Assembly (NCBI GenBank): GCA_022844015.1
Contig: JALHMO010000050.1
Location: forward strand, 1 to 40,721
Direction of reading: 5' to 3'
DNA from: Reyranella sp.
GTDB lineage: Bacteria; Pseudomonadota; Alphaproteobacteria; Reyranellales; Reyranellaceae
Length of the DNA stretch: 40,721 bases
The stretch's first letter is position 1; each line of letters starts with the position of its first letter. The translations under genes were made by a program, and so were the position numbers. Below are positions 8,377 to 23,026 of this stretch, one piece after another. Under the pieces are notes generated by a model. It was not told the DNA's origin and did not search any database. It worked only from the letters and a program-made list of their open reading frames with translations.

Positions 8377-10431
8377 CTACCCCATTCCCATCGCGAGGAT
8401 TGCCGCCTTCGTGGGCGAGTCGTAGAACTGCCACTGGATCGCCGTGAGGATTGCGTCGGGCACCTCGGCAAGGTCGCGCTTGTTCTCGCTCGGGATGAGG
8501 ATGCGCTTGGCCCCAGCTTCGACGGCGGCCTGCATCCGCTCGGGTAGCGCTGCCACCTTCAGCAGCATGCCCTGCACGCTCATCTCGCCCAGCACGACGG
8601 TCCGATCCAGAATCGGCTTGTCGAGGATCGCCGAAACCAATGAAAGGAAGAACGCGACCGCCGTCTCGGAGCCTTCCTTTGCCTGGTTCAGATTGATGGC
8701 TTGAACCGTGAAGTCGTACGCTTTGAGGTCATGGTCGATACCGAGGTTCTTCAGGTTGGCCTTCAGGTAAGCGTCGGCGGTCTTGATCGCCTCCTTCATC
8801 TTGCTCGACAAGTTGCCGAGCGGGACGATGCGACCTGAGCCACGGTTCATCTGCGTCTGGAGCAGGAACATCGCGAGGCGATTGTTCATCACGTCGGTGC
8901 CGATCGTGTAGACGCTGCCCGGAGGAAGCCTGCCCTCGGCGATGATGCTGCCGCTGCCCATCTCGGTGACAGGAACGAAAGTCTCCTGACCGCTCTCCAT
9001 ATCGACATAGGAGAACGTCGTGTCCCAGTACTCGAGGCCGCCCATCTTCTTCAGCTGTTCCTTGACCCGACGCCGTCCCTCCATCGCATAGGCGAGATAC
9101 TCCTCGACCTCCGGCTTCGAGACATTGCCGTCGGGATGCAGCAGCTTGATGAGACCGGATACCGTCTTGCGCACCGCCTTCTGGTCGCGCCCGCCGAGGT
9201 GCTGCCCAAAACGGAAGTGACGCTCGGCCAGGTCGCCGTAGCTGCGCTTGCGCACCTCGCGGAAGACCTCCGCGAGGTAGTCGGTGACGAGCCCGAAATG
9301 GTTCGTGTACGCGGCGTCGGAGGTCTTCTGAAACTCCCAGCCTGGGACGTACGCGTGTATGCGGTCGTAGAACGCGGTGTCCATCTCCTTCGGCATCGGA
9401 TAGAAAAGATTGGATGTGCGGATGATGGTCTCGATGTCGCCGTCGATGTTGCCCACGAAGACGACCGAGCCCTCGGCGGTGATCACGTCACTGCCGCGGC
9501 TGAAGGCGCCGTCCTCCATGTAGCCCTTCATGATGTTGATGCCGTTCTTGTCGGTGAACCTGATCCCGGCGGCTTCATCGAAGGCGACGACGTCCCACAG
9601 CGCGACGAGGCCACGCTGCCCGGTGCTGAGGTTCACGAACATCTGGGCCGTCGTCGTCTGGCCGCCGGAAATGAGGTGGCAGTACGGGCTGAGCTGCTGA
9701 TAGACGAAGCTCTTGCCTGTGCCTCGTGGTCCGAGCTCGATCGAGTTGTAGTTGCGCTCGACGAGCGGCACGAGCCGCTGAAGGTAGTGAAGCTTGCGCC
9801 GCTTCGTGTAGTAGGGATGGTCGGGTTCGTAGCCCATGGATCGCATGAGCAGGTCGAGCCACTGGTCACGCGTGAATCGCTTCCGCCCCTCGACGAAGCG
9901 CTCGATGTTGCGGGTCGAGAGCTGGATGGGCCGGATACTCTCGACGAACAGCGGCCGGTTCTGACCCTTGAAGACGTAGGAATCGTCGTAGCGGAGCCTG
10001 ATCTCTGCCCACACGCCGCCCATCAGCAGACGGTCGTGCTCGCGCACCAGGCTCTCCTCGACGTTGATGAAGTCGAGGTCGAGATTCGAAAGGCGCGCCC
10101 AGTACTTGTCGTGCGTCTCGACGAGGCGCACGGAGATCTTGTCGATGATCTCGTAGGTGCTGTGCTGCTTGATCGCCGACTTCACTGCCTCCCGCTCATC
10201 GGGCTTCACGAACTTGCTGCTGAGCGTCTCGCGGACGAACTCCAATCCCTCGCGGATCGCCTCCTCGTCAGTCGATGCGCAGTACTTCCCGAGCAGGAAC
10301 TCGATCACGAACGCAGGGACGCCGAATGCGCTCCGCATGCGCCGCAACAGGTCCTTGCGCACGACCAGACCGGGGAACGCTTCGTTCGCCATCCGGTCCA
10401 GCTCGTCGAGCTCGATGGTTGCGTTACTCAT
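8377..10431 (-). CDS. brxL: BREX protein BrxL, Lon-like AAA+ ATPase
   Basis: The 684-residue protein has the length and layout of type 1 BREX BrxL: an N-terminal region to about residue 220, an AAA+ ATPase with Walker A GPRGTGKS (residues 234-241) and Walker B-like ALWDVVAFDEA, and a Lon-protease-like C-terminal domain from about residue 580. In that domain the serine region is GSETAVAFF, but the position of the Lon catalytic lysine (in G-L-x-E-K) seems to be arginine (ALPERMQAA). Known BrxL forms DNA-binding ring complexes required for phage restriction. It starts six bases after the pglZ stop. Confidence 0.93.
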   Translation of the reverse strand: MSNATIELDELDRMANEAFPGLVVRKDLLRRMRSAFGVPAFVIEFLLGKYCASTDEEAIREGLEFVRETLSSKFVKPDEREAVKSAIKQHSTYEIIDKISVRLVETHDKYWARLSNLDLDFINVEESLVREHDRLLMGGVWAEIRLRYDDSYVFKGQNRPLFVESIRPIQLSTRNIERFVEGRKRFTRDQWLDLLMRSMGYEPDHPYYTKRRKLHYLQRLVPLVERNYNSIELGPRGTGKSFVYQQLSPYCHLISGGQTTTAQMFVNLSTGQRGLVALWDVVAFDEAAGIRFTDKNGINIMKGYMEDGAFSRGSDVITAEGSVVFVGNIDGDIETIIRTSNLFYPMPKEMDTAFYDRIHAYVPGWEFQKTSDAAYTNHFGLVTDYLAEVFREVRKRSYGDLAERHFRFGQHLGGRDQKAVRKTVSGLIKLLHPDGNVSKPEVEEYLAYAMEGRRRVKEQLKKMGGLEYWDTTFSYVDMESGQETFVPVTEMGSGSIIAEGRLPPGSVYTIGTDVMNNRLAMFLLQTQMNRGSGRIVPLGNLSSKMKEAIKTADAYLKANLKNLGIDHDLKAYDFTVQAINLNQAKEGSETAVAFFLSLVSAILDKPILDRTVVLGEMSVQGMLLKVAALPERMQAAVEAGAKRILIPSENKRDLAEVPDAILTAIQWQFYDSPTKAAILAMGMG

Positions 10432-10437
10432 GGGCCC

Positions 10438-13020
10438 TCACATGTCTCTCCCGACGGTCAGCTTGATCCCGCCCGGAGGGAACTGTTCAGTGGTCTCGAC
10501 GTCGCGAATGTCGAGCTCGAGCAGCTCGCCCTTCCGAAAGGTCAATGCCGTGTGGAAGAAGAGCGTCGCGCTCTGCTCCTTGTCATTGGGCTCGACGCGG
10601 AGCTCTTTCGCTTTACTGGCCAACACCGTCGTCGCCGTGCCATCCGCGGCCCTGCGAAGCACCTCGAGTGAAAGCGTGCGCCCAGCGTCCGGGAAGAGCG
10701 GAAGCTGCGCTTGCTTTGGCGCTGTCGACGAAGCTACGCGCACCGTGACCTTCACCGCCGGGCGCTGCAGCTCGAACGTCGGCAGGATGATCTCGAGCGC
10801 AACGCGCCTGCCCTGGGGCGCGTGGCTTCGCGACACGAGATGTGGAATCACCAGCTCCTGGAGCGTCGCACCTCCGTGCGAAAACGACTTCTCGGCTTTG
10901 AAGAAGGCAAGGCCCGGCGGCACCGCGACGCGATGCTCCGGTGCCCACGGCAGGGGCAGCGTGACAAGCGGCAGGTCCGCGCTCGCGGGCACGATGGCGT
11001 AGCGCTCCTTGAGGACATTGCACCACGACTTGTCGCACGGCACCTCGCTCGGGAGCTTCTGCTCGTCGATCAGGATGAAACCATGGTCCGTGACTATGTG
11101 AACCTGGCCGTAGCCCCAGCGATGAAGCTTTCGCACGAGGCGCGCGAGGCGCTCGACCTCGAGGTGAACATGCCGGATCAACGTCTCGGCCTGTCCATGA
11201 CCGATGCTGTCGACCTCCTCGTGACCGTAGACGACGAGCAGGTCGCCGGCATCGGGAAGCGAGGATGCCGCCTCCACTGACGAGATGTCGCGGCAATCCG
11301 CTCCAAACTCACTGAGGAACTCGAGGCGGGCCGCGCGCGCGGCGAAGTCCTTGCCGCCCACTCTTGGATGTAGCGAGTTCTGCTTGAGCTCCAGTTCCAC
11401 CGTGGCGCCCAGGAGAGGCAGCATTGCCGTCATGCCGACCGGCGTGATCGTCGGCAACATCGCCAGGATAGGCGTGACCTCGATGTTCTGCCCGTGCAAG
11501 TATCGGCCAATTGCAACGGCGCAGTCGTAGCGAAGCGCGTCGACGATGACCACCGCACGGCGCCCGTGGCCCTTCCAGACCGACGCTTCGAGGTGTTCCG
11601 TCGCCCCCGGGATGCCCAAACCATCGAGGTTCCTCGCGGCCGCCACGTGCTTGAAGAACGCCTCATTGAGCGTGTTGGTGTAAGAGGCGTAGGCGCGGTC
11701 CGCGACCCGCGCGATAGCACCCAGCCCGGCCTCCTCGGCCGCGTAGCGAATGGCAAGGTGGGCACCGTCGATCTCGCTTGCGTGCTTCACGAACAGCTCG
11801 ACGAGGGCCTGTGCAGTCTCGGCGCTCAAGACCTCTTTGCGCGCCGCAGTGCATGTCATGACAATCCGATCGAGGTCGCGCAGGAGTTGCCAATGCCCGA
11901 TCTCCTGCTCACGCGCCTTCAGGAACTCAGCCTGCTCCGCAAGGCCGCCCCGTGTCTTGGCGAAGATGGCTTCGGTCGACGACTCCTTCTCCGAGGCCGC
12001 CTCGAACTCCTGCCATGTCCGGCGCCAACGCCACAGGACGAGGTGAGGGAACGCGACGGAGCGTCCGGACGGGTGCCCTTCGGACCATGATGTCAGGTCG
12101 ACATCCGTCTCGACCTCTTCAATGCGCCGGTCCCAGGCGGACCGGTACTCGGCGTCTCGAAGCCAGCGTTGCACCAATGCGACGTGATTCGCGCGAACCG
12201 GCAGCGGCGGCAGCTTGTTCTTGAAGGGGAAGTCGGATGGCTCTCCATAGCCAAGGAATGTCTCCGTGAGTGCAACTGTGGTCACGAGCTCGCGGATCCA
12301 GTCCGCTGGCGAGCGGCCAGGCGCCTCGAAGCCGTAGCGCTCCCTCACCATCGCGGTGAATTCCTGGTCGAGTCCCTTGTCGGCCAGCGCCGCCCACTCG
12401 GCGTCGGGATCGGCGGCAACCTCGAAAATGGTCTGGTCCAGGTCTCCGATGAGGCGCGACTGAGCGACGTCAGACGTGAGCGTCGTCTCCCAGAATACAG
12501 GAGGCCGGTCGACGAACTTGACGCTGTACTTCGCGAGAAGAGAGCCACGACCACCCTCATAGAGACGGCGCTGGTCGGAGGGGCTATCCGGCAAAGCAAC
12601 GCCGGCCTGCTTCAGGAAGCTGAACAGTGTCGGTCGCTTACCACCGATGCGGAAGAAGACGCCGATGGCGCGAAACTCTTCGAGCAGCTCGAGGCTCACC
12701 TCGTCGTCTCGACCGCCGGCGTCAAGGCGTTCCTCGGGCAGCGGCACGTAAATGACGAAGCGGAGCGACGCCCGTTTGGCCGCTTCAGCCGCTTCGAGCC
12801 GCTGATGCACCTGGTGCTTCAGCCAAAGCTGGCCATGACGCTGCGTCTTGTCGTAGGCGAGCAGCACGAACGGCGGCTTCGAGCGCAAAGCGACGTGTGC
12901 CTCGAGCAGAGGAAGGAGGCGGGCGAACTCGCTGCGCTCGTCGAACCAAAGGCAGACGCGCGCGCGTTTCTCGTGCTGGAAGCGCTGCTCGAGCTGGCTG
13001 ACCAATGCCTCGAAGATCAT
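10438..13020 (-). CDS. pglZ: BREX phosphatase-like protein PglZ
   Basis: The 860-residue protein matches PglZ of type 1 BREX. It has an N-terminal helical region starting MIFEALVSQLEQRFQ and an alkaline-phosphatase-superfamily core. Metal-site segments are visible: VIVDALRYD near residue 490, YGHEEVDSIGHG, and the later VTDHGFIL near residue 645. PglZ is needed for both methylation and defence in known BREX systems. Its ATG overlaps the stop of the pglX 3' half by four bases, so it is likely translated with it. Confidence 0.93.
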   Translation of the reverse strand: MIFEALVSQLEQRFQHEKRARVCLWFDERSEFARLLPLLEAHVALRSKPPFVLLAYDKTQRHGQLWLKHQVHQRLEAAEAAKRASLRFVIYVPLPEERLDAGGRDDEVSLELLEEFRAIGVFFRIGGKRPTLFSFLKQAGVALPDSPSDQRRLYEGGRGSLLAKYSVKFVDRPPVFWETTLTSDVAQSRLIGDLDQTIFEVAADPDAEWAALADKGLDQEFTAMVRERYGFEAPGRSPADWIRELVTTVALTETFLGYGEPSDFPFKNKLPPLPVRANHVALVQRWLRDAEYRSAWDRRIEEVETDVDLTSWSEGHPSGRSVAFPHLVLWRWRRTWQEFEAASEKESSTEAIFAKTRGGLAEQAEFLKAREQEIGHWQLLRDLDRIVMTCTAARKEVLSAETAQALVELFVKHASEIDGAHLAIRYAAEEAGLGAIARVADRAYASYTNTLNEAFFKHVAAARNLDGLGIPGATEHLEASVWKGHGRRAVVIVDALRYDCAVAIGRYLHGQNIEVTPILAMLPTITPVGMTAMLPLLGATVELELKQNSLHPRVGGKDFAARAARLEFLSEFGADCRDISSVEAASSLPDAGDLLVVYGHEEVDSIGHGQAETLIRHVHLEVERLARLVRKLHRWGYGQVHIVTDHGFILIDEQKLPSEVPCDKSWCNVLKERYAIVPASADLPLVTLPLPWAPEHRVAVPPGLAFFKAEKSFSHGGATLQELVIPHLVSRSHAPQGRRVALEIILPTFELQRPAVKVTVRVASSTAPKQAQLPLFPDAGRTLSLEVLRRAADGTATTVLASKAKELRVEPNDKEQSATLFFHTALTFRKGELLELDIRDVETTEQFPPGGIKLTVGRDM

Positions 13021-14939
13021 CCCGCAATTCCTGTGACGCGCAGGACCCCGGCTCGATCGAGCGGCGCGATGTTCACCTTCACGCCGTCATCGAGGTCAGG
13101 CGCCCAGCCACGAGGACGCGCGCTTGGCTCCTTCCACGGCGTGAGGATGCGGAAATCGAGCTCGCCACCCTCTGGGCCTTCGTGCTGCCCCTCCTGGATC
13201 CGCTGCAGGTTTCGGTCGAGCGCCTGCACCTCCTCGAGCTTTGCTTGCAGCTCGACACGGTCGTCGCCGCGGCCAGCCTTGTCAGCAAGCCCTACCTCGC
13301 GGCGAAGCTCGTCGATGGTGTCTCGCACGTAGCTCGCGCGAAGCTTCGCCATGCGATTTCTGTCGAAGCGGTGATAGTGCACCAGTGCACCGAACGCGAA
13401 CGGTGCGGTGCCTTGGGCCGAAGCGATGTGCCAATAGATGGGGCAGCTTTTGTAGAGTCCTGCATGGTACTCGGAGAAGGCGTTCGCCAGCCATTCGTCG
13501 AGGCTCGCGCACTTCCGGTAACCCTTCACGCTCCGCTTGAGCTCGTTGACGATCTCGACCTCGAGCTGGCTCTCCTCACGACCAGGCAAGAGCGCAACGA
13601 GTTCTTGGCGGACGCGCTCAGCGAGTGGCGTTTCGCCGGTGCTGCGGTTGAAGGGTACGATACCGTCGTCGTCGGCCTCGATTACTCGCTTCACCGCGAA
13701 CGAAAGAAGGCGCCAGACATGTTCCATGCGTTTTTGTTCGGTGGTTTTGCCCTCCATTTGGGGCCAGAGGAACTCCGGCGGCCGTTCGCGAACGGCTATC
13801 CTCATCGTCTTCGCCACGTCACCACGCATGCCGAACGCCGAATAGACTTCTTCGTTCAGCGTAGTCGCGAGCGTCCTTATCCGCTCCTCATCGATCGACT
13901 CGCGGCGAGCGACGCCCTCAAGCCGCTCAGCAAGAGTTCCTTTCACTCCGAGTACCCACGGCGTCTCAAAGCCGGTGGAAAGCTCATTTCCGGCATCCCA
14001 AGCCGCTTTGGCATCATGAATTGCACGGGCGGCCGCGGCGATAGCTCGACGCTGGTTCGCACCACAGGACGGAACAGGAAGACGCTTGATGACCCCAACC
14101 TCCCATGAACCGAACGACATGAGTCCTCGAAGAATGAACTCAGCGCATTCTGAACTCAGCAATCCGAGGACGAAATCTAGCTCGGCAGGTTGCTTCGGGA
14201 ATACCGCGGGCCCTTTGTCGGCAAAGATATGACCGGGCGGCATCTTTCGAATGTTGAATCCGCGCTGAGTCCTCCTCGGCCACGTCAGACCCTCAAGTCC
14301 ATAGCGGTCGCGACTCCTAACTTGGCGCGACCAGGACCCCTCTCCGTAGAGCTGTTCATTGAATCGTTTAATGGCGTCGCCATCATCTTTCCACAGCACG
14401 ACTAGATCAAAGGACTGATAGAAGCGCGAAAACTCGCCTCCCTTAGCGAATGGCGCCCAGCCATTGCCTATACCAACGTCCGTGCTGAGGACCTCCCATC
14501 TGAAGCGTACAAAGCGAGAGTCGTCTGCAGTGGACAGTCCCTGCCGAACGTCGGCTATTGCCGGTTCCAAAGGAGGATTTTCTCGAAAGAGATGCGCAAC
14601 CAAACCCAGGCGCTGGTAGTTCAGTGGCGCGCCATCAATCGCGGAGAAATCCCTACGCGCGACGTCGTGCCGAACGCCATCGTCCTCACCCCGCAGCGCC
14701 TGAACGAAGATCTCGTGGCGCTTGTCTTGCTCCTCTTTCTTGCCGCCCTTGAAGCGCTCAAGCTCGAAGAACGCCGCTCGTTCGGCCTCAGTGACGACGT
14801 AGTAAGCGCGGTCCGCTTGTGCGAGGCTCGTCTCGATGCCCTCGCGGGCCTGCGTGGCCTGGATTGTCGAGACCATCAGCTTCCGGCGGAGGTCGGCGTC
14901 CGCAAGGATGGCCTTCACGTTCACGCGCTTACTGGCCAC
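13017..14939 (-). CDS. PglX C-terminal half with Fic-antitoxin-like N-terminus
   Basis: The 640-residue protein corresponds to the target-recognition and C-terminal part of a BREX PglX methyltransferase (WAPFAKGGEFSRFYQ, GLTWPRRTQRGF, IFADKGPAVF). It has no catalytic NPPY motif of its own; that is in the gene at 15783-17900. The first 55 residues are helical and differ from ordinary PglX. They contain STIQATQAREGIETS, with T29-x3-E33-G34 matching the (S/T)xxxE(G/N) motif by which class I antitoxins such as VbhA block Fic enzymes. The GTG start at 14939 overlaps the end of fic by 11 bases. I infer that this protein both completes PglX and restrains Fic. Confidence 0.85.
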   Translation of the reverse strand: MASKRVNVKAILADADLRRKLMVSTIQATQAREGIETSLAQADRAYYVVTEAERAAFFELERFKGGKKEEQDKRHEIFVQALRGEDDGVRHDVARRDFSAIDGAPLNYQRLGLVAHLFRENPPLEPAIADVRQGLSTADDSRFVRFRWEVLSTDVGIGNGWAPFAKGGEFSRFYQSFDLVVLWKDDGDAIKRFNEQLYGEGSWSRQVRSRDRYGLEGLTWPRRTQRGFNIRKMPPGHIFADKGPAVFPKQPAELDFVLGLLSSECAEFILRGLMSFGSWEVGVIKRLPVPSCGANQRRAIAAAARAIHDAKAAWDAGNELSTGFETPWVLGVKGTLAERLEGVARRESIDEERIRTLATTLNEEVYSAFGMRGDVAKTMRIAVRERPPEFLWPQMEGKTTEQKRMEHVWRLLSFAVKRVIEADDDGIVPFNRSTGETPLAERVRQELVALLPGREESQLEVEIVNELKRSVKGYRKCASLDEWLANAFSEYHAGLYKSCPIYWHIASAQGTAPFAFGALVHYHRFDRNRMAKLRASYVRDTIDELRREVGLADKAGRGDDRVELQAKLEEVQALDRNLQRIQEGQHEGPEGGELDFRILTPWKEPSARPRGWAPDLDDGVKVNIAPLDRAGVLRVTGIAG

Positions 14940-15786
14940 TTTCCACCTCCCAACGGTTCTGCGCGGCCTGCTCCCACTCGGCTATGAGCTTTGCAAGTGG
15001 TGCGTAGTTCTTGTGGACTCGAATGTCCTCGCACGCTGCGTAGTACCGGTCCTGGTCCGCGCGACGATCGTAAACGTCGAGTGGCAAAAGGTCGTTCTGC
15101 ATGAGAATCAGATTGCCGACAATGAAGGCTGTGCGACCGTTGCCCTCGCGGAAAGGGTGGAGGGCAAGGATTTCTCCCATCACCTCGCTGACGAAGTCGA
15201 AGACTTTGGCGTCATCGCTGGAGATCAAAGGCGACCGCGACAACACATCACGCTCGAGTAGCTCCATCAGTGGAGCGATGCCGCGGGGAGGCAGCGGCCA
15301 CTTCGTCGGGCCGTCACCCTTGTGCAGCGAGACTTCTCGCCATTTCCCCGCAAACGGGTAGATGGCACCCATGAGCTCGCTATGAACCCGCTGAACCAGC
15401 GCAGACGACAGGGCGACTGGCTCGGCGCGATCAAGATACGACGCTACCAGCTCCATGGCGCGCGCCACACCTTCATCCTCTCTGCGATGGATTTCTTCGT
15501 GGTCAAGGCACCCGGCGAAATTCAGAAGGATGCCGTCCGCCGTCGTGATCCAGTCCCAGTCCCGTTCATACTCCTGCCACGGAATCGGCACGACGCGCGG
15601 CGACGTGGGTGCAGCGGCGGCAAGATTCTCGATGTGCTCCTTCGTCAGTTTACGGTGCTTGGCAGGTACCGCATAGAAGGCTCCCAGCTCGCTCGCCTGG
15701 TAGTACTCGGCCTTGGTTCTGCCCCTGCCACTTCGGAAGCGGAAGCCAAAGTCTTTCTCGGCCCATCTCCACTGCACGCGGCTCAC
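14929..15786 (-). CDS. Fic-domain protein inserted between the PglX halves
   Basis: The 285-residue protein has the full Fic active site HPFREGNGR (residues 210-218; catalytic His210, acidic Glu214, Arg218) and the preceding conserved IYPFAGKWRE (142-151), where the flap over the target site begins. Fic enzymes usually transfer AMP to proteins. I find no (S/T)xxxE(G/N) inhibitory motif within it, the pattern expected of class I enzymes, which rely on a separate antitoxin. The GTG start overlaps the stop of the pglX 5' half by four bases, and its end overlaps the start of the 3' half by 11. The N-terminal 90 residues are of unknown role. Active AMPylation and its target are inference. Confidence 0.93.
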   Translation of the reverse strand: MSRVQWRWAEKDFGFRFRSGRGRTKAEYYQASELGAFYAVPAKHRKLTKEHIENLAAAAPTSPRVVPIPWQEYERDWDWITTADGILLNFAGCLDHEEIHRREDEGVARAMELVASYLDRAEPVALSSALVQRVHSELMGAIYPFAGKWREVSLHKGDGPTKWPLPPRGIAPLMELLERDVLSRSPLISSDDAKVFDFVSEVMGEILALHPFREGNGRTAFIVGNLILMQNDLLPLDVYDRRADQDRYYAACEDIRVHKNYAPLAKLIAEWEQAAQNRWEVESGQ

Positions 15787-17900
15787 GGGACGCCTCCGTG
15801 AACGACGAGGGCGGCCGCCTCTACGGTCGCGTCGTCGAGGATGCCAAAGCCGAGATCAAGCATGACGATAAGGGGGTTGCGCTTGAGCAGTATCTCGGTG
15901 CGGAACTTCTCGAAGGTCGTGAGGTTCACGAAGGTCGCGGAGACCAGTGCACCGACGTAACCCTCGGGCTCGGTCAGCTGCGTGCCGCGATCGACGAATG
16001 CAGCGTAGATATCGTTCGAAGTGAGCGGATACGCAGCCTTCACGAACTCCTTCACCTTCGGTACGAATGATCCGTAGGGCGGGTTCATCACTGCGATGTC
16101 GTAGCGTCGGGCCAGCATCTGCAGGAGCTTGAGCCCCCGCGCGGTGTCCTCCGCGAAGAGGCGTTCTGCCGGCTCCGCGGCGGACTGTGCGGCGGCATCT
16201 TCGATGGCAATGAGCAGTTCCTGCTGGAGCTGCGTCGCCTCACTCTCGAGCAACCTTCGCTCGAGCTCGAGCTGTCTTGCCTTTGCGCGGTCTGAATCGG
16301 TGAGAATGCTGCCGAGCTCCAATTGGGCGCCAGCATTGCGGCGACGGATGAGCGTTGTGAGGCCCTTGTCCCTCGCCCGTGCGTTCACCCACTCGTCGAG
16401 GACCTGCCCCACGCCTTCGCGCACCTGGACGAGGCTGCCCAACTCACCAACATACTGCATGTTGTCCCACAGCGTCTTGAACAGCCGCTGGCGCAGCTCC
16501 GGCGAGCCCAGACTGCTGCCGACGCGTTCGACGAGTTGGCGAAGGCGATCGGCGCCGAGGTCGACGACGTTGGCGACCACGAGGTTGCTCCGCCGGATCT
16601 TCACATCGAGCGGAGAGAAGCTGTGGCGAAGGGCTGCCTCCTTTGCCGTCAACATCAACGACAGCGAAGCAATCTGGATCGCACGCGGGTCGATATCGAT
16701 GCCGAAGAGATTGCATTCCAGGATGGTTGCCGGGATTTTGCGCGCATCGCTGACCGATGGTTCCGAGGGCCAACCTGGCTTTCCTGCGTTCTCGATTTCG
16801 TCGAGGTACATGGCATGGAAGACGCCGAAGGCGTACTGGCCAAAGTGCATCGTGCCACAGGCCGGATCGACGAGCGCAATGTCGATTGCGCGCTTGAACT
16901 CCTCGATCTGCCCGTCGTCGGTAAGGCGCTGGTAGCGAATGCGCTCGCCGGTCCGTGGCACGAGGTAGTCTGCGACCGCCACGTCACTCGTGCGCTGCCC
17001 AGGCAGCGGCGGCGGTCCCTTCGCTGCAAGCGAAGAGTCTGGGTGCATCTGCAACCAGAGGCGTCCAAGGGTATTATCGACGAGCGCCTTCACCACCCAG
17101 GACGGCGTGTAGAACTGATTGATGACAGCCAGCTCGTAGGAGGAGCGTGGCGTTCCCTTGTTCTCGCCCCGAACCCGCTTCCTCTCGTCCCGGTTGAAGA
17201 ACTGGTAGACCCAGCCGAGGAAGTCCTGCGCGCGGAATGCATCGGCAGGCAGCCCCTCATTGATGAGTCCAATCACGTCGCTGAGCGCAGCGTGCGTAGG
17301 CCAGACGCACGCATACTCGTGCTCAGGATCGAAGAGGACCCGTATCTCGCTCGTGACCTGCCGGAACGCCGACGTGAGCCCGTCGCGCAACAGCGCCTCC
17401 TCGGCGTCGTCCTCGTACTTGTAACGGCTCCCCCTCGACTCGCGGAAGTCACGCAGGTACCGGGACCGTGCCTGGCCGGGCACCGGCGTGATGACCTCGG
17501 TCTCCTCGGGCGCGGCGCTCTTATCACCGGGTGGCGTCAGGTAGAGCAGCTTGCGAAGTTCCATCGCCTTCAGGCCGACAAGCCTGTTTAGCATCGTGTA
17601 GGTGAGCTCACGAATGACGTTGTCATAGCCACGTTCCGGCGTCCCTTCGGAGAGCGACTCGCGCGTTACGAGCGCCTCCACGCGATGGCGCACAACGATT
17701 GACGCCGCGGGGAGGTTCATTTTGTCGAGCGGGAAGTGCCTGCCGTTACGGCGAAGGCCGATCCGCCCGAGCTGGGCCCCGAACTCATCGTCGAGCACCT
17801 TGCGGACCTTGGGCACCCACGACTTGACGGCCTCCTTGAGGCCGTCCGAGAGCGCCTGCGCCGATGCCGGGCCGTTGCTCGTCTGATCGCTTGAACTCAC
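15783..17900 (-). CDS. pglX: PglX N-terminal half: adenine-specific DNA methyltransferase core
   Basis: The 705-residue protein carries the catalytic core of a BREX N6-adenine methyltransferase. SAM-binding motif I is DPACGTMHFG (residues 345-354), an acidic-strand segment FGIDIDPRAIQIA follows at 399-411, and catalytic motif IV is NPPYGSF (606-612). It stops after LDLGFGILDDATVEAAALVV, where a normal PglX (about 1,200 residues) runs on into its target-recognition domain. That domain is encoded separately at 13017-14939. The GTG start overlaps the brxC stop by four bases. Since both halves have coupled starts and intact frames, I read this as a stable two-gene arrangement rather than decay. 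Confidence 0.9.
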   Translation of the reverse strand: MSSSDQTSNGPASAQALSDGLKEAVKSWVPKVRKVLDDEFGAQLGRIGLRRNGRHFPLDKMNLPAASIVVRHRVEALVTRESLSEGTPERGYDNVIRELTYTMLNRLVGLKAMELRKLLYLTPPGDKSAAPEETEVITPVPGQARSRYLRDFRESRGSRYKYEDDAEEALLRDGLTSAFRQVTSEIRVLFDPEHEYACVWPTHAALSDVIGLINEGLPADAFRAQDFLGWVYQFFNRDERKRVRGENKGTPRSSYELAVINQFYTPSWVVKALVDNTLGRLWLQMHPDSSLAAKGPPPLPGQRTSDVAVADYLVPRTGERIRYQRLTDDGQIEEFKRAIDIALVDPACGTMHFGQYAFGVFHAMYLDEIENAGKPGWPSEPSVSDARKIPATILECNLFGIDIDPRAIQIASLSLMLTAKEAALRHSFSPLDVKIRRSNLVVANVVDLGADRLRQLVERVGSSLGSPELRQRLFKTLWDNMQYVGELGSLVQVREGVGQVLDEWVNARARDKGLTTLIRRRNAGAQLELGSILTDSDRAKARQLELERRLLESEATQLQQELLIAIEDAAAQSAAEPAERLFAEDTARGLKLLQMLARRYDIAVMNPPYGSFVPKVKEFVKAAYPLTSNDIYAAFVDRGTQLTEPEGYVGALVSATFVNLTTFEKFRTEILLKRNPLIVMLDLGFGILDDATVEAAALVVHGGVP

Positions 17901-20900
17901 TTCACCACCACCGTGAAGCCTTCACGCACGCGGGCCTTGAGTTCTTTGGAAAGCAAGTCGAGCGCAGAGTCGACGTCCGCCTCGGTGGCAAATCGCCTGC
18001 CGGCGAGGACGGAGCCAGGGCGCCATTCGAAGACCCTCTGATCGGGCGACGGGGGCGGCAGGACGAGCGCAACCAGGTCGGACTCCACCTGCGAGCGGTA
18101 TGCGGGAAGTGCGACGAGCGCCTGCTCGAGCGTCGTCAGGCTTCGCTTGCCCGCTGCATCGAGGAGTGATTCGACCGACGACAGCGTCAGTTGCGGGTAA
18201 TGGCACACCCGCCCTGGGCCGAAGACCTTGGCGACCACAGCTTCACGCTGCCCGGCAGGTGCCTTCCGGAAGGCGTCGCTGTCGTGGACCGCAGCAACGG
18301 TGGCTTCGGCCACCCGGCGTACCTCGTCGTAGCTCTGCACGAACGCGTCGCGGTAGGCCGCGAACGCGGCGTCGATCGCCGAGCGATAATCCGGCCAGCG
18401 AGCGACCACGGCCTTCTCCGCGGCGATCGCAGCGAGGTCCTTCTCCGCCTGCACTAAAGCAGCTCGCTTAGGATGAGCATCCGGGAGAGGATGGTCGGCA
18501 GCGAGCGACAACAGCCGACGCGACAGCTCGAAGTCCTTGTGCCGGTTTGCATCGAGGAAGTGCCGCAGGGCTTCGACCGACTGGAAAAGGGTCTTCCAGA
18601 CGTCCTCCTTCGCAAGGAATGCAGTCACCGCCGCTGTCGGGTCCTTCGCCGTCATAGGCTCCGTCAGCGCGCTCTCGGCTTCCAGGATGACTGCAGGGAT
18701 CGGAAGCCCCTGCTGTGCCCGAATGCGTGCATCGTCGATGCGGGATTTCAGTGCGACCCCCAAGCTGCGTATTGCCGCCGCGATGGCATTCCCGGATTCC
18801 GGAGTGCCGCTCACGCCCATCGCAATGAGCGCCTTGCTCGCTCGCTTGATCTGGTCGACCGAGAGGCTCGTCTCCGCAATGCAGAATGTGGCCTTCTTGA
18901 ACGACGTGATCTTCGAGAAGATATCGTCGGTACCCTTGTAGTCGTAGAGCGTGGTCGGTCCGGCGGCGCTTTGCTGCTCGATGTAGACGCCACCCGCGCG
19001 GAAGCATGCCGCGAGGACCAGTCGGACCAGCTCGTCCGGCCACCCGAATGGCGCGCGGGAAAAGCCTTTGAAGCCCTTGTCGTCCCTGGCATCCAGGAGG
19101 CGGGCCCCGTCCGCGTCAGCGCCCTCGTCACGGAGGTCCGTGAGAACCTCCAGCACCTGCGACACGAGCGCCGCCTCGCTCTGCAGGCTGCCCTGCGTAT
19201 CGAAGAGGCTGAGGTCGGGGGCAACCTTGTGCAACTCCAGCGTCGCCGGACTGAGGAGCGACTTGAGGTTCTTGGCGAACTCGAACTGCCGATCCGCGAT
19301 CGAAAAGCGCGGGTAGACGTTGGGGATGACCGACGAGAGCGCACTCTTGATCGGGTCCTTCAGGTCGGAGACGCCCTCGAGGCTGATCTCCTGCCCGCCC
19401 TGGAACAGCGTGCCCGCGATGAAGGAACGTTCGAGGTCTTTCACCAGCGCGTTTTTCAGCTCGTCGCGCTCCTTGCGCTTCTCCGAGAGGGCATCCTGCG
19501 TGTCCGTGGAGCTGTCCTCGGTGAAGCGCTTGTCGGTGGTGACCTTGACCAGCGCTTCGTATCGCTTGAAGCGGGCCTCGAGGTTGTCGGGTGCATCCGC
19601 CACCCACCACACGGTCTTACCCTTCGCGCCCGCCGCCTGATTCTGACGACGCAACTCTTCGAGGTCCTGCTTGCGCCCCGGAGCGAGCGGGCTCGTGAAC
19701 GAGACCGCCAACTCGGGGCCCGTCTCGACCGCTTCGCCGTCGAGGTGCACGCCGAAAGAGAACGGAACCTTTGTCGTTCCGTGCGTCACCGCGAAGTTCG
19801 CGAGCTTCCTTCGCGTGACAACCTCGTCCTTGCACAGCTGCTGCGCGGTTCGCCGCACCGCTGCGATGCTGATGCTCTTCGTGCCGCCGGGCCGGACCAT
19901 CTCCTGGATGGCCTGCTCGATAGTGCGCTCACGTTCGTTGAGGAATTTCCACTCGCCGGTGGCCTCGTCGCGCGCGACGTAACCCGCCTCCTGGAGCGCG
20001 ACGAGGGTCGCTTCGACCTGGGCGCGCAGCGGCACGATTTCCGTCGTGAGATCGCGAACGAGCAGCTTGGCGAGCGTCTCGGGCACGCGAGGGACCCAGG
20101 TGATGCGCTGGAGCAACCAGAGGACCTTGAGGACTCGTGACGACTCCACCGGCATGTTGGGCACACGCTCGTCGGACTCGTAGATCGAGCGCACGCCCGA
20201 CGCACCCAGGTACTCCTGCGAGAGGAGGTCATTTTCCACGGCGTCGAAGACCTGGTCGAAGCTGACGACAACACCGAGCTGCCTGTCAGCGAGGTCTTGA
20301 AGCGCCTCCATCACGACAGCGATCATCGAGCGAACGCCGCCCGAGATGCGGAAGCCCGAGAGCGCCTCGAAGATGTCCTGCGCGAGGCGAACCTGATGGG
20401 GAAGGAATGGGTAGGCGTCGATGAACGAGCGCTCCGTGATGCTCGCGAGGCGACGGCTTGCCTTGATGTCGGCGAGGTCCGCGATGTGGCCTTCGTGCTT
20501 GGCGTAGAGGGACTTTAGGTTCCCCTCTTCGGCCGGGCGCTTCTTGAGGATGCGCTCCGACACGACCTTGTTGATTTCGTCGGAGATGAGGTGCGGTTTC
20601 AGCTCGAAGCGCGCGTTCAGGCGGCCAACCAGAGTCGGCTGGAAGTTGGTACGGTCAACGACCTTTTCGAGGTCCTGCTGGCTCGTGGCGATGAGCCAAA
20701 CCTTGCCCTTGCCCTTGTTGGCGATCATCTCGGCGAGGCTGTTCAGCTCGCCGATGCGCTCGTTCGAGTCGCCGATGAACGTGCCCATCTCGTCGACGAC
20801 TAAGACGAGGTGCTGCGTCTTGCCGCCCGTGGTCTTTTGGGCATCGACCCAGGCCACGAGCTCGTCTGCGATACCTTCCGCCGTGAGCTTCTCGTGACGG

Positions 20901-21628
20901 AACATGTCGGTCAGCGCTTGCAACGCAGACGGCTCGTCCGGGTACTCTTTCGGGTCGATCTTGGGTAGAACCTTCGAGAGGCGCCGGCGGACCGTCATGA
21001 GGTCGTCGCGTCCTTCCGCACTTCGCCACGGAACACCGTGAAGGGACTCGAAGGTCGCGGCGAGCTTCTCGAGGAGACCCCGCTGCTGGAGTCGGCGCTC
21101 GACGCGAGCGACGATGAAGTTGTCGCCATATCCGATATCCCTGTAAAACTCGGAGAGAAGGATCTCTCCCACCGAGTTGGGATTGGTCAGCGACTGGCGG
21201 CTCTTGATCTCGAAGGCGATGGTTCGAACCTGCGTGTTCAGCTTTATCTCCCCGAGGCGCAGACGGACATCCTTGCCGCGCTGGCTGTCTGAGAGGTGCT
21301 TCACAAAGGCGTCGATGCAGCGCTCGCCACCAGAGCCAAGCTCGTCGTTCTGCAAGAGGTAGCCGAGCACCTTTGCGAAGTGCGATTTGCCCGAGCCAAA
21401 GAAGCCGGACACCCATATCCCGACGACGTCGCGCGAGGCACCGCCGCGCCGGATCGTCTCGCTCACCTGCGTGAAGGTGTCGACGATACGCTTCAGCTCT
21501 TCTTCGATCTTGTCGGTGACGACGTACTCGCGGACCTCGCTGGCCAGCGCCGAACGATCGAATACCTTGACGACGCCTTCGATCTTTTCGCCGATGTCGC
21601 GCCTGATGATTTCTCGAACGGTCGTCAT
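17897..21628 (-). CDS. brxC: BREX P-loop protein BrxC
   Basis: The 1,243-residue protein has the expected length of BrxC. The Walker A motif GFFGSGKSH lies at residues 75-83 and a Walker B-type segment, HLVLVVDEMGTFI, about 200 residues later. The long C-terminal part is mainly helical. BrxC/PglY is the large ATPase of BREX, required for both defence and methylation. It follows brxB by 37 bases and its stop overlaps the pglX 5' half by four. Confidence 0.94.
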   Translation of the reverse strand: MTTVREIIRRDIGEKIEGVVKVFDRSALASEVREYVVTDKIEEELKRIVDTFTQVSETIRRGGASRDVVGIWVSGFFGSGKSHFAKVLGYLLQNDELGSGGERCIDAFVKHLSDSQRGKDVRLRLGEIKLNTQVRTIAFEIKSRQSLTNPNSVGEILLSEFYRDIGYGDNFIVARVERRLQQRGLLEKLAATFESLHGVPWRSAEGRDDLMTVRRRLSKVLPKIDPKEYPDEPSALQALTDMFRHEKLTAEGIADELVAWVDAQKTTGGKTQHLVLVVDEMGTFIGDSNERIGELNSLAEMIANKGKGKVWLIATSQQDLEKVVDRTNFQPTLVGRLNARFELKPHLISDEINKVVSERILKKRPAEEGNLKSLYAKHEGHIADLADIKASRRLASITERSFIDAYPFLPHQVRLAQDIFEALSGFRISGGVRSMIAVVMEALQDLADRQLGVVVSFDQVFDAVENDLLSQEYLGASGVRSIYESDERVPNMPVESSRVLKVLWLLQRITWVPRVPETLAKLLVRDLTTEIVPLRAQVEATLVALQEAGYVARDEATGEWKFLNERERTIEQAIQEMVRPGGTKSISIAAVRRTAQQLCKDEVVTRRKLANFAVTHGTTKVPFSFGVHLDGEAVETGPELAVSFTSPLAPGRKQDLEELRRQNQAAGAKGKTVWWVADAPDNLEARFKRYEALVKVTTDKRFTEDSSTDTQDALSEKRKERDELKNALVKDLERSFIAGTLFQGGQEISLEGVSDLKDPIKSALSSVIPNVYPRFSIADRQFEFAKNLKSLLSPATLELHKVAPDLSLFDTQGSLQSEAALVSQVLEVLTDLRDEGADADGARLLDARDDKGFKGFSRAPFGWPDELVRLVLAACFRAGGVYIEQQSAAGPTTLYDYKGTDDIFSKITSFKKATFCIAETSLSVDQIKRASKALIAMGVSGTPESGNAIAAAIRSLGVALKSRIDDARIRAQQGLPIPAVILEAESALTEPMTAKDPTAAVTAFLAKEDVWKTLFQSVEALRHFLDANRHKDFELSRRLLSLAADHPLPDAHPKRAALVQAEKDLAAIAAEKAVVARWPDYRSAIDAAFAAYRDAFVQSYDEVRRVAEATVAAVHDSDAFRKAPAGQREAVVAKVFGPGRVCHYPQLTLSSVESLLDAAGKRSLTTLEQALVALPAYRSQVESDLVALVLPPPSPDQRVFEWRPGSVLAGRRFATEADVDSALDLLSKELKARVREGFTVVVK

Positions 21629-21665: not shown

Positions 21666-22205
21666 TCAGCGCGCGAACAGCTTGATGGCCAGGTAGTTTG
21701 CGCCGTCCGCCTGATTCATGAAGTGAAGCTTGCCACCGCGTTCCTCCCCCGGGAATCCGAGAACGATGCGCGCTTCGAGGTCTCGCAGACCGCGAAGAAC
21801 CTCTCCGTACCGGACCAGGGGATACAGCGCGACGGTCGCGTACACGAACACGTTCCCGCCCGGGACCTTGGCAGCTTCTTCCGTGAGGCGCGCTTGCAGG
21901 GCGGCCTCGGACCGCTTCGAGAGCCCCTGCTGCATCCAGCGGTAGTCCTCGAACTCATCCTCCTGGAGCGATTCGATCTGTTCCTCGCTGAGGCCCGCGA
22001 AGAGGAACCCGGTCAGGTCCAACAACCGATACCCAATGCCTTTGGCATCGAGCTCTGGCACGAAAGTGTCGAGGAGGTACTCGCGGAAGTCGAGCTCGCG
22101 GCCGGGTGGATAGATCAGCAGGATCGAGCTGTCGGTCTTCACGCCCCGATCGTGGCGAAGCGGCGTTTTCAGGATCTCGAGAAGCGCGGTGAACATGCTC
22201 TCCAT
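21666..22205 (-). CDS. brxB: BREX protein BrxB (DUF1788)
   Basis: The 179-residue product fits DUF1788: VKTDSSILLIYPPGRELDFRE, then VFVYATVALYPLVRYGEVL and the C-terminal NQADGANYLAIKLF. Its ATG at 22205 shares one base with the brxA stop (TGATG), so translation is coupled. A longer in-frame extension upstream is the antisense-free overlap with brxA and was discarded. The role in BREX is structural or unknown. Confidence 0.92.
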   Translation of the reverse strand: MESMFTALLEILKTPLRHDRGVKTDSSILLIYPPGRELDFREYLLDTFVPELDAKGIGYRLLDLTGFLFAGLSEEQIESLQEDEFEDYRWMQQGLSKRSEAALQARLTEEAAKVPGGNVFVYATVALYPLVRYGEVLRGLRDLEARIVLGFPGEERGGKLHFMNQADGANYLAIKLFAR

Positions 22206-23026
22206 CAGGCGCCCCTCACGTCGAGGTCGACGACATCGCCCTGCATGCGAAAGCGCAGTGCGCCGGCACGGTTCATCTCGCCGAGAGCATCGATCACCTC
22301 GGTGGTGTCGAGGCAAAGCAGCTTGAATGCGGGTGCCCGAACGATGTCGAGCGGCGCCACGCCGGCCAGTCGAAGGGCCCGCACCAGAAGGCGCATCGGA
22401 GCACCGTAGAGCGCGGGTCGGACAGAGGTCTTGCGGATCGTGCCCCGAGCGAGGCCGAAGTCTCGAATGCTCGCCATGTACTTCTGAGCGACAGCCACAC
22501 GTGTCTCGTCCGACCACGCGCGCGCTTCCGGGTGCAAACGATATGCGCGCTCGATGAAGGCGAGCACATCCGCGAGGCGGATGTCGGTGGGGGCGCGACG
22601 AAGCAGCGGGAAAAGCAGCTCGAGACCGAGGTCCGTCACGAGGCGGTCGTTGAGGGCGAAGAACACGTACGCGGTGAGACTGCGCTCCGGTTCTGAGGCA
22701 CTCCGCTGCCACTCGGTCCAGAACGCTGCGAAGAGTGGGTCTTCGGCGTCGAGACGATAGCGCGCCTTGAGCTCCTTCCACAGCTTCTCCCGCGCCGCCT
22801 TGGATGGCTTTGCCAGCCGGTTCTCGTCGACCACCCGGCGCCGGTATTCGGCCGAGGTGAGGGCCTTCGTCTCGCCGTCGAGCAGCTGGTGAAGCTCCGT
22901 GAACAAAGCCGAGCGCGCGGAGAGTCTCGACGAGTACGGTGCTGCCGGATCCAAACCGGCCACTGCCGCGGCACGGGCCACCGCATGTGCACCATTGGCC
23001 TTTGATTGTGGCTGGTGGAACGTCAT
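22205..23026 (-). CDS. brxA: BREX protein BrxA (DUF1819)
   Basis: The 273-residue product matches DUF1819 (BrxA), a small helical protein that is the usual first core gene of type 1 BREX. Visible parts include YSSRLSARSALFTELHQLLDG near the N-terminus and LTAYVFFALNDRLVTDLGLELLFP in the middle. Its ATG overlaps the stop of the HTH gene by four bases (ATGA). Confidence 0.92.
   Translation of the reverse strand: MTFHQPQSKANGAHAVARAAAVAGLDPAAPYSSRLSARSALFTELHQLLDGETKALTSAEYRRRVVDENRLAKPSKAAREKLWKELKARYRLDAEDPLFAAFWTEWQRSASEPERSLTAYVFFALNDRLVTDLGLELLFPLLRRAPTDIRLADVLAFIERAYRLHPEARAWSDETRVAVAQKYMASIRDFGLARGTIRKTSVRPALYGAPMRLLVRALRLAGVAPLDIVRAPAFKLLCLDTTEVIDALGEMNRAGALRFRMQGDVVDLDVRGA

Follow-up and report, generated by a model that had tools for sequence, protein, structure and literature searches.

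A Fic-linked segment with a conserved antitoxin-like motif begins the second half of a split BREX PglX and is a candidate brake on the Fic protein encoded between the halves

The second half of PglX in a type 1 BREX operon of Reyranella sp. begins with an addition of about 55 residues that carries a conserved (S/T)xxxE(G/N) motif, the signature of class I Fic antitoxins. Comparison of loci shows that this segment, hereafter EXT, occurs with fic and, to judge from the sequences, that PglX of fic-less loci does without it, in its split form as in its unsplit form. Our preferred reading is that EXT is a short helix-turn-helix-like segment serving Fic, grafted on PglX and probably inhibitory; we give this a probability of roughly 0.5. 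That EXT binds Fic, and would thereby fix it to the DNA-recognition half of PglX, we consider likely, and whether the binding also restrains Fic is a call on which the odds appear level.

The window, by which we mean the whole 40,721-nucleotide stretch of DNA analysed, contains a complete type 1 BREX set on the minus strand in the order BrxA, BrxB, BrxC, PglX N-half, Fic, PglX C-half, PglZ and BrxL (Table 1), with BrxA, BrxB, BrxC, PglX, PglZ and BrxL, the six genes of the type, all recovered by profile matches. The BrxB match covers the end of the listed ORF and the true start is therefore probably further in. PglX is not a single chain here; it is encoded by two ORFs with fic between them, as it is in related fic loci. 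Against the NCBIfam model of BREX-1 PglX the N-half reaches position 608 and the C-half runs from 616. The C-half ORF occupies 13017-14939 on the minus strand with a GTG start at 14939. It shares 11 bases with the fic ORF, which in turn shares 4 with the N-half ORF, and these overlaps suggest coupled translation. A ribosome-binding-like GGGAGG is found at window positions 14946-14951, within the end of fic and just upstream of this GTG. In solved PglX a short hinge, residues 654-659, joins the two large domains (PMC11341690). For the model of a natural fusion of Fic to the C-half, alignment with solved PglX/BrxX begins only at residues 648-655 of those chains, and the model is weak there (pLDDT below 50 over 327-379), so that the split can be placed near the methyltransferase/TRD hinge, not exactly.

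Table 1. Positions of the operon genes and of the features discussed in the text (window coordinates).
Feature	Position	Strand	Basis
BrxL	8377..10431	-	profile matches
PglZ, nearest BREX-1 type B	10438..13020	-	profile matches; NF033450 below its cut-off
Rest of PglX C-half: TRD, spacer, C-terminal region	13017..14774	-	
EXT, about residues 1-55 of PglX C-half, Fic-linked segment	14775..14939	-	locus comparison and entropy
Predicted second helix, residues 39-54	14778..14825	-	AlphaFold2, same model of residues 1-92
Motif T29-Q-A-R-E33-G34 (TQAREG)	14838..14855	-	[S/T]xxxE[G/N]; row conservation
Predicted helix, residues 15-32, directly preceding E33 (putative inhibitory helix)	14844..14897	-	AlphaFold2, residues 1-92
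fic gene	14929..15786	-	PF02661 E 1.1e-12; best solved sequence match VbhT 3zcb E 1.3e-8
Fic motif H210-PFREGNGR218-TA-F221; R2 position = Phe	15124..15159	-	Phe at R2 in 120 of 120 homologues examined
PglX N-half (N-terminal and methyltransferase parts)	15783..17900	-	PF07669; NF033452 positions 1-608
BrxC/PglY	17897..21628	-	profile matches
BrxB, ORF as listed	21666..22781	-	PADLOC BrxB E 4.4e-10; Pfam BrxB slightly below cut-off
BrxA, ORF as listed; overlaps listed BrxB ORF	22205..23026	-	PF08849 E 3.4e-18

The original prediction, made from the sequence of the window, held that the first 55 residues of the C-half are missing from ordinary PglX and carry the antitoxin signature at residues 29-34. 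Both statements stand, with the motif reading TQAREG and the boundary correct to within one or two residues. Split C-halves from loci lacking fic start at around window residue 54, and the Phe conserved among them corresponds to F57. In the 20 listed of 284 records of BREX-1 PglX from plasmids, the match to the C-half begins only at residues 70-97. Profile models begin earlier in the C-half, the NCBIfam BREX-1 PglX model at residue 51 and one PADLOC PglX model at residue 16. A single instance of the motif is weak evidence, because the eight operon proteins (5,061 residues) contain it three times and it arises in 1.8% of EXT shuffles; it is conservation across rows that identifies it as real. 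The conservation set comprised 139 rows, namely the window, 18 loci and 120 listed of 710 homologues (one being the window's own record), and is biased to close relatives. One row is gapped; among the other 138, E33 is found in all, G34 in 136, S/T29 in 125 and the full motif in 123; position 29 is I, L or V in 13. Moreover, E33 and G34 are invariant in 22 rows made up of the window and 21 loci. EXT is far better conserved than the TRD region: mean entropy is 0.66 bits at residues 1-40, against 1.35-2.01 bits for 40-residue blocks over residues 121-360, and the C-terminal 120 residues of the C-half are comparable to the former (0.64-0.77 bits).

Association with fic was assessed in a set consisting of the window, 27 loci from a scan of a genome collection and 4 loci from viral contigs, a scan of this kind finding only loci that hold the patterns used. 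EXT is present on 23 C-halves (the window, 19 genome loci and 3 viral contigs), and an open, full-length fic accompanies 20 of these, adjoining EXT in 19 and separated from it by two genes in one (L031). The expectation that such halves always occur with fic is borne out for 20 of the 23; two of the others, L019 and L027, lie at contig edges and in L052 fic is truncated. EXT of L019 is seen from residue 32 only, where the contig starts, whilst L027 has a divergent Fic-like tail recognised by eye, with no BLAST match. L052 (4307-7914) retains only the last ~33 codons of fic beside unrelated genes, phage-like by eye, and its EXT and C-half are open. The truncation looks like a later loss, which would leave L052 with a brake and no toxin.

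Ten PglX C-parts come from nine loci without a fic match and EXT is absent from all ten. Three are unsplit (L032, L039 and L055) and seven are C-half ORFs from six loci (L034, L035, L036, L037 twice, L038 and L040), the contig of L034 showing just 872 bases upstream of its C-half. The unsplit ORFs, over the length that their contigs cover, contain no motif and give no EXT match, and the seven split C-halves contain no motif within the 130 residues read. The observation named beforehand as counting against an antitoxin role was the occurrence of this segment in PglX of fic-less operons; it was found in 0 of 10. As split C-halves without fic also lack EXT, the segment belongs with fic and not with splitting as such. 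L032 is otherwise close to the window (64% identity in PglX-N, 69% in PglZ). It groups with the fic loci in the PglZ tree, whereas the PglX-N tree sets it apart from them with weak support. In the PglX-N tree the fic loci form one group, and the five split loci without fic that were placed form another, distant one. The association may therefore be one ancient event, kept since. Loci with EXT are labelled as five phyla: Myxococcota, Pseudomonadota, Acidobacteriota, Verrucomicrobiota and Schekmaniibacteriota.

Several loci carry further genes in or near the split. In L038 (6195-7820), a cyanobacterial BREX with a split PglX and no fic, genes for PIN (PF13470) and TumE (PF20126) proteins lie between the halves and, with their small neighbouring ORFs, resemble two toxin-antitoxin modules at the PglX junction. 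Between fic and the C-half with EXT, L031 (4788-7861) has a large P-loop NTPase gene and a HEPN-like gene, the latter scoring below its Pfam cut-off. A PD-(D/E)XK gene (PF13366; GxxExxY type by eye) separates the PglX N-half from fic in L033 (6404-6829), and in L029 (9924-11870), a Verrucomicrobia locus, an OLD-like ATPase gene, assigned by eye, and a partner lie between PglX-C and PglZ. L037 (4408-8213) has, after a single N-half, two consecutive C-halves without fic, which may represent two interchangeable DNA specificities.

The protein encoded between the halves is a clear Fic (PF02661, 49.1 bits against a cut-off of 24), and its departure from the canonical motif is confined to one position. 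The canonical Fic AMPylase motif is HxFx[D/E]GNGRxxR. The window Fic reads HPFREGNGRTAF and does not match it, everything except the second arginine, R2, being present. Phe occupies the R2 position in 120/120 Fic homologues (120 of 822 matches) and also in 19 Fics of the locus set, and these R2-less proteins keep the catalytic His and GNGR1. Four distant Fics were found besides the window's own in 398 genomes (E up to 1e-10) and R2 is kept in 4/4. Replacement of R2 by Phe with the remaining motif intact suggests an altered substrate or chemistry in this Fic subfamily. The window Fic contains no [ST]xxxE[GN] of its own, as had been predicted, and only two scattered chance instances occur among the 120 Fic homologues listed of 822. 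The contact proposed for E33 finds no support in its original form: Arg218, named as its partner, is the first arginine, R1, and the R2 position is Phe221. In class I pairs it is R2 of the partner Fic that is bound by the Glu; the first helix of EcFicA ends with the motif, whose Ser and Glu bind R2 of Fic (PMC5033356). With Phe221 in the window this salt bridge cannot form, and E33 would have to use other contacts, such as ribose, R1 or the anion nest. The inhibitory Glu is described as binding the ribose 3'-hydroxyl as well (PMC3667792), a contact that would not depend on R2. Loss of R2 may also explain why position 29 is sometimes I, L or V, since it is this position that binds R2 in EcFicA.

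Residues 1-92 of the C-half were modelled with AlphaFold2 from a 22-row alignment (overall pLDDT 70.6); folding also drew on a 42-row set. Confidence is high over residues 21-40 (mean pLDDT 92-94) and drops beyond residue 50 (47 over residues 51-60). The model places E33 directly after helix 15-32, so that the motif closes a helix, as it does in class I antitoxins. Moreover, two natural Fic-EXT-PglX-C fusions, P0083 and P0242, which are 56% identical, were found among 120 listed of 726 matches. In both of them EXT is located after the last Fic helix, and the inhibitory helix of class III Fics is located after the last Fic helix too (PMC3667792). The model of the P0083 fusion has a helix matching EXT helix 15-32 at lower confidence (EXT has pLDDT 71-78 over model residues 291-320 and 49 over 321-330) and, with these values, does not establish docking; the structural comparison of its Fic part ends at model residue 281, before EXT. 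An apparent fusion could arise from an error of one base where the genes overlap. A real fusion is favoured for P0083, as ~10 junction residues are missing too; P0242 is without such loss.

Alignment of EXT with VbhA-like domains, which the original prediction had proposed as a check, was carried out with profiles. VbhA is first of 103 by hhalign (P 0.0019) and the reciprocal best at P 0.0045, with the next at 0.01. Once the six motif columns are masked it falls to rank 38, and with 22 diverse rows VbhA (P 0.0055) is tied with pieces of Fic (P 0.0054). As the likeness goes with the motif, homology to VbhA is not claimed. The Pfam VbhA family (PF18495) was not matched by any EXT member (15 and 22 scanned), a fold search with the EXT model gave no significant match and no Fic antitoxin, and the best match of the EXT profile among solved structures was chance-like (E 0.015). 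We therefore do not class EXT in the VbhA family; its function is probably like that of VbhA. An origin from a duplicated last methyltransferase strand, an idea prompted by PADLOC PglX models that overlap at the split, was rejected, six tiles of the N-half tail giving P 0.21-0.35 by profile comparison. Partial matches to DUF4132 below the cut-off (best E 3.9e-4, 10/22 members; hhalign P 0.016 against the one sequence found in 60 genomes) were taken as chance. A search for EXT elsewhere in 398 genomes gave matches in seven besides the window's own (E up to 0.05), of which none is taken as real; those of four genomes were inspected, the best being a 647-residue ORF, by eye like a periplasmic folding protein. 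Plasmids gave no match to C-half residues 1-92 at E up to 1.

Taken together, the association with fic, the invariant E33, the predicted helix ending before it, the fusions, the lack of a motif in Fic itself and the likeness of that Fic to VbhT argue for a brake. Against a plain antitoxin stand Phe at R2, the variable position 29, a VbhA likeness that goes with the motif, the low pLDDT of the fusion model and an association that may be a single event. The original claim that PglX restrains Fic thus keeps its link to fic and a helix topology and fusions that fit an inhibitory helix, but lacks the usual partner, R2. Mechanistically, the end of helix 15-32 and E33 would enter the nucleotide site of Fic, much as the inhibitory helices of class I antitoxins and of class III Fics do, and PglX would be antitoxin and DNA reader in one. 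A broader form of this proposal, in which the BREX DNA-recognition subunit is the antitoxin of the R2-less Fic coded inside it, any phage protein or DNA event that draws PglX off frees Fic, and the PglX hinge, where other BREX loci have PIN, TumE or HEPN-like genes, is a general dock for toxins, we put forward tentatively, at clearly less than even odds. The last step, that Fic is set free and growth arrested when PglX is disturbed, be it by a phage DNA mimic, by foreign DNA or by loss of the operon, as a guard or as addiction, is speculative and we rate it as unlikely. T7 Ocr had been suggested as such a trigger; in the Salmonella PglX:Ocr structure, as described in PMC11341690, Ocr touches the C-terminal domain and stays out of the hinge.

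It is this guard step alone that competes with the best-placed alternative, a selfish insertion, in which pglX was invaded by a Fic toxin-antitoxin cassette that survives as an addiction module of the island, unrelated to phage sensing; an EXT brake is compatible with it. We think it improbable, though the strongest of the rivals. The PIN and TumE genes with small neighbours at the same junction of a split pglX of another lineage (L038), and the HEPN-like and P-loop NTPase genes of L031, speak for it, while EXT is fused to PglX and strongly conserved across five phyla, beyond what a recent insertion needs. Toxin-like genes at the split junction of other loci fit repeated guard building and repeated addiction equally. 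Somewhat further down we place a dock only, with EXT holding Fic on PglX so that it modifies BREX proteins, phage or host at the DNA, and with no inhibition. Linkage to fic requires nothing beyond binding, the R2 partner is lost and the likeness to VbhA comes from the motif alone, all of which suit a dock; it does not account for the helix-ending Glu-Gly being more constant than any other feature, or for the lack of an inhibitory motif in Fic itself. Less probable again is that EXT completes the active site, E33 supplying a residue to the R2-less Fic in a two-protein enzyme that reverses the modification or performs other chemistry. Here R2 is uniformly Phe and yet the catalytic His and GNGR1 are kept, the inhibitory Glu is able to bind ribose (PMC3667792), and the title of PDB entry 8wt0 names a Fic/antitoxin pair, Fic-1/AntF, as a deAMPylase; the motif, however, has the form of that in inhibitors. 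Lastly, a purely structural role for EXT, capping the hinge of the split PglX and bearing the motif by coincidence, is very improbable, for although EXT lies near the hinge between the PglX domains and ~2% of such segments are expected to hold the motif by chance, seven split C-halves without fic manage without EXT, albeit in another PglX lineage, and EXT has no similarity to the N-half tail.

On our preferred reading, that of a Fic-serving and probably inhibitory segment, EXT-Fic-PglX joins BREX, whose mode of stopping phage is not understood, with Fic toxins, few of whose natural triggers are known. Restraint of Fic by PglX would give BREX a built-in second line against anti-BREX proteins, and an inhibitory Glu acting without its Arg would change the recognition rule for Fic antitoxins. 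The restraint is directly testable, since operons with and without fic, split and unsplit PglX and the fusions provide natural controls.

We found no description in print of a Fic inside PglX in a partial literature search, with subscription papers and bioRxiv largely outside it. The words "fic" and "split" occur 0 times in the main text of a 2026 BREX survey (PMC12839542), and the paper that this search gave on BREX with Fic and PglX concerns a plasmid with a separate fic/yhfG pair. The class I pairs VbhT-VbhA and EcFicT-EcFicA are alike in that the window Fic is nearest VbhT by sequence, and by structure too, there tied with other Fics such as FICD, and in that [S/T]xxxE[G/N] ends a helix, here a predicted one, in a partner protein. 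They differ in that the partner segment here starts a large DNA methyltransferase subunit, coded downstream, and that R2 is Phe, and homology of EXT to VbhA is undetectable beyond the motif. With NmFic and other class III Fics the window shares, through the two natural fusions, a segment after the last Fic helix; unlike them, EXT is normally on a separate chain and its Fic lacks R2. Type 1 BREX of E. coli and Salmonella has the same six core genes and the C-half aligns to its solved PglX/BrxX, whereas PglX of the window is split near the hinge by fic, with EXT added. Sofic-AS1 is a Fic in phage defence with a small antitoxin coded downstream (PMC12249575); Sofic, however, is a class II protein with its own helix and AS1 a free protein of 47 residues. 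The closest working analogue of the proposed guard would be PrrC-EcoprrI, in which PrrC is silenced by the EcoprrI enzyme and freed by a phage inhibitor, T4 Stp (PMC2610378). There, as apparently here, a toxin is tied to a DNA modification system, in our case by a toxin-like gene inside the operon; PrrC is an anticodon nuclease acting with a type Ic restriction enzyme, whereas the silencing of Fic by PglX and its release are putative here.
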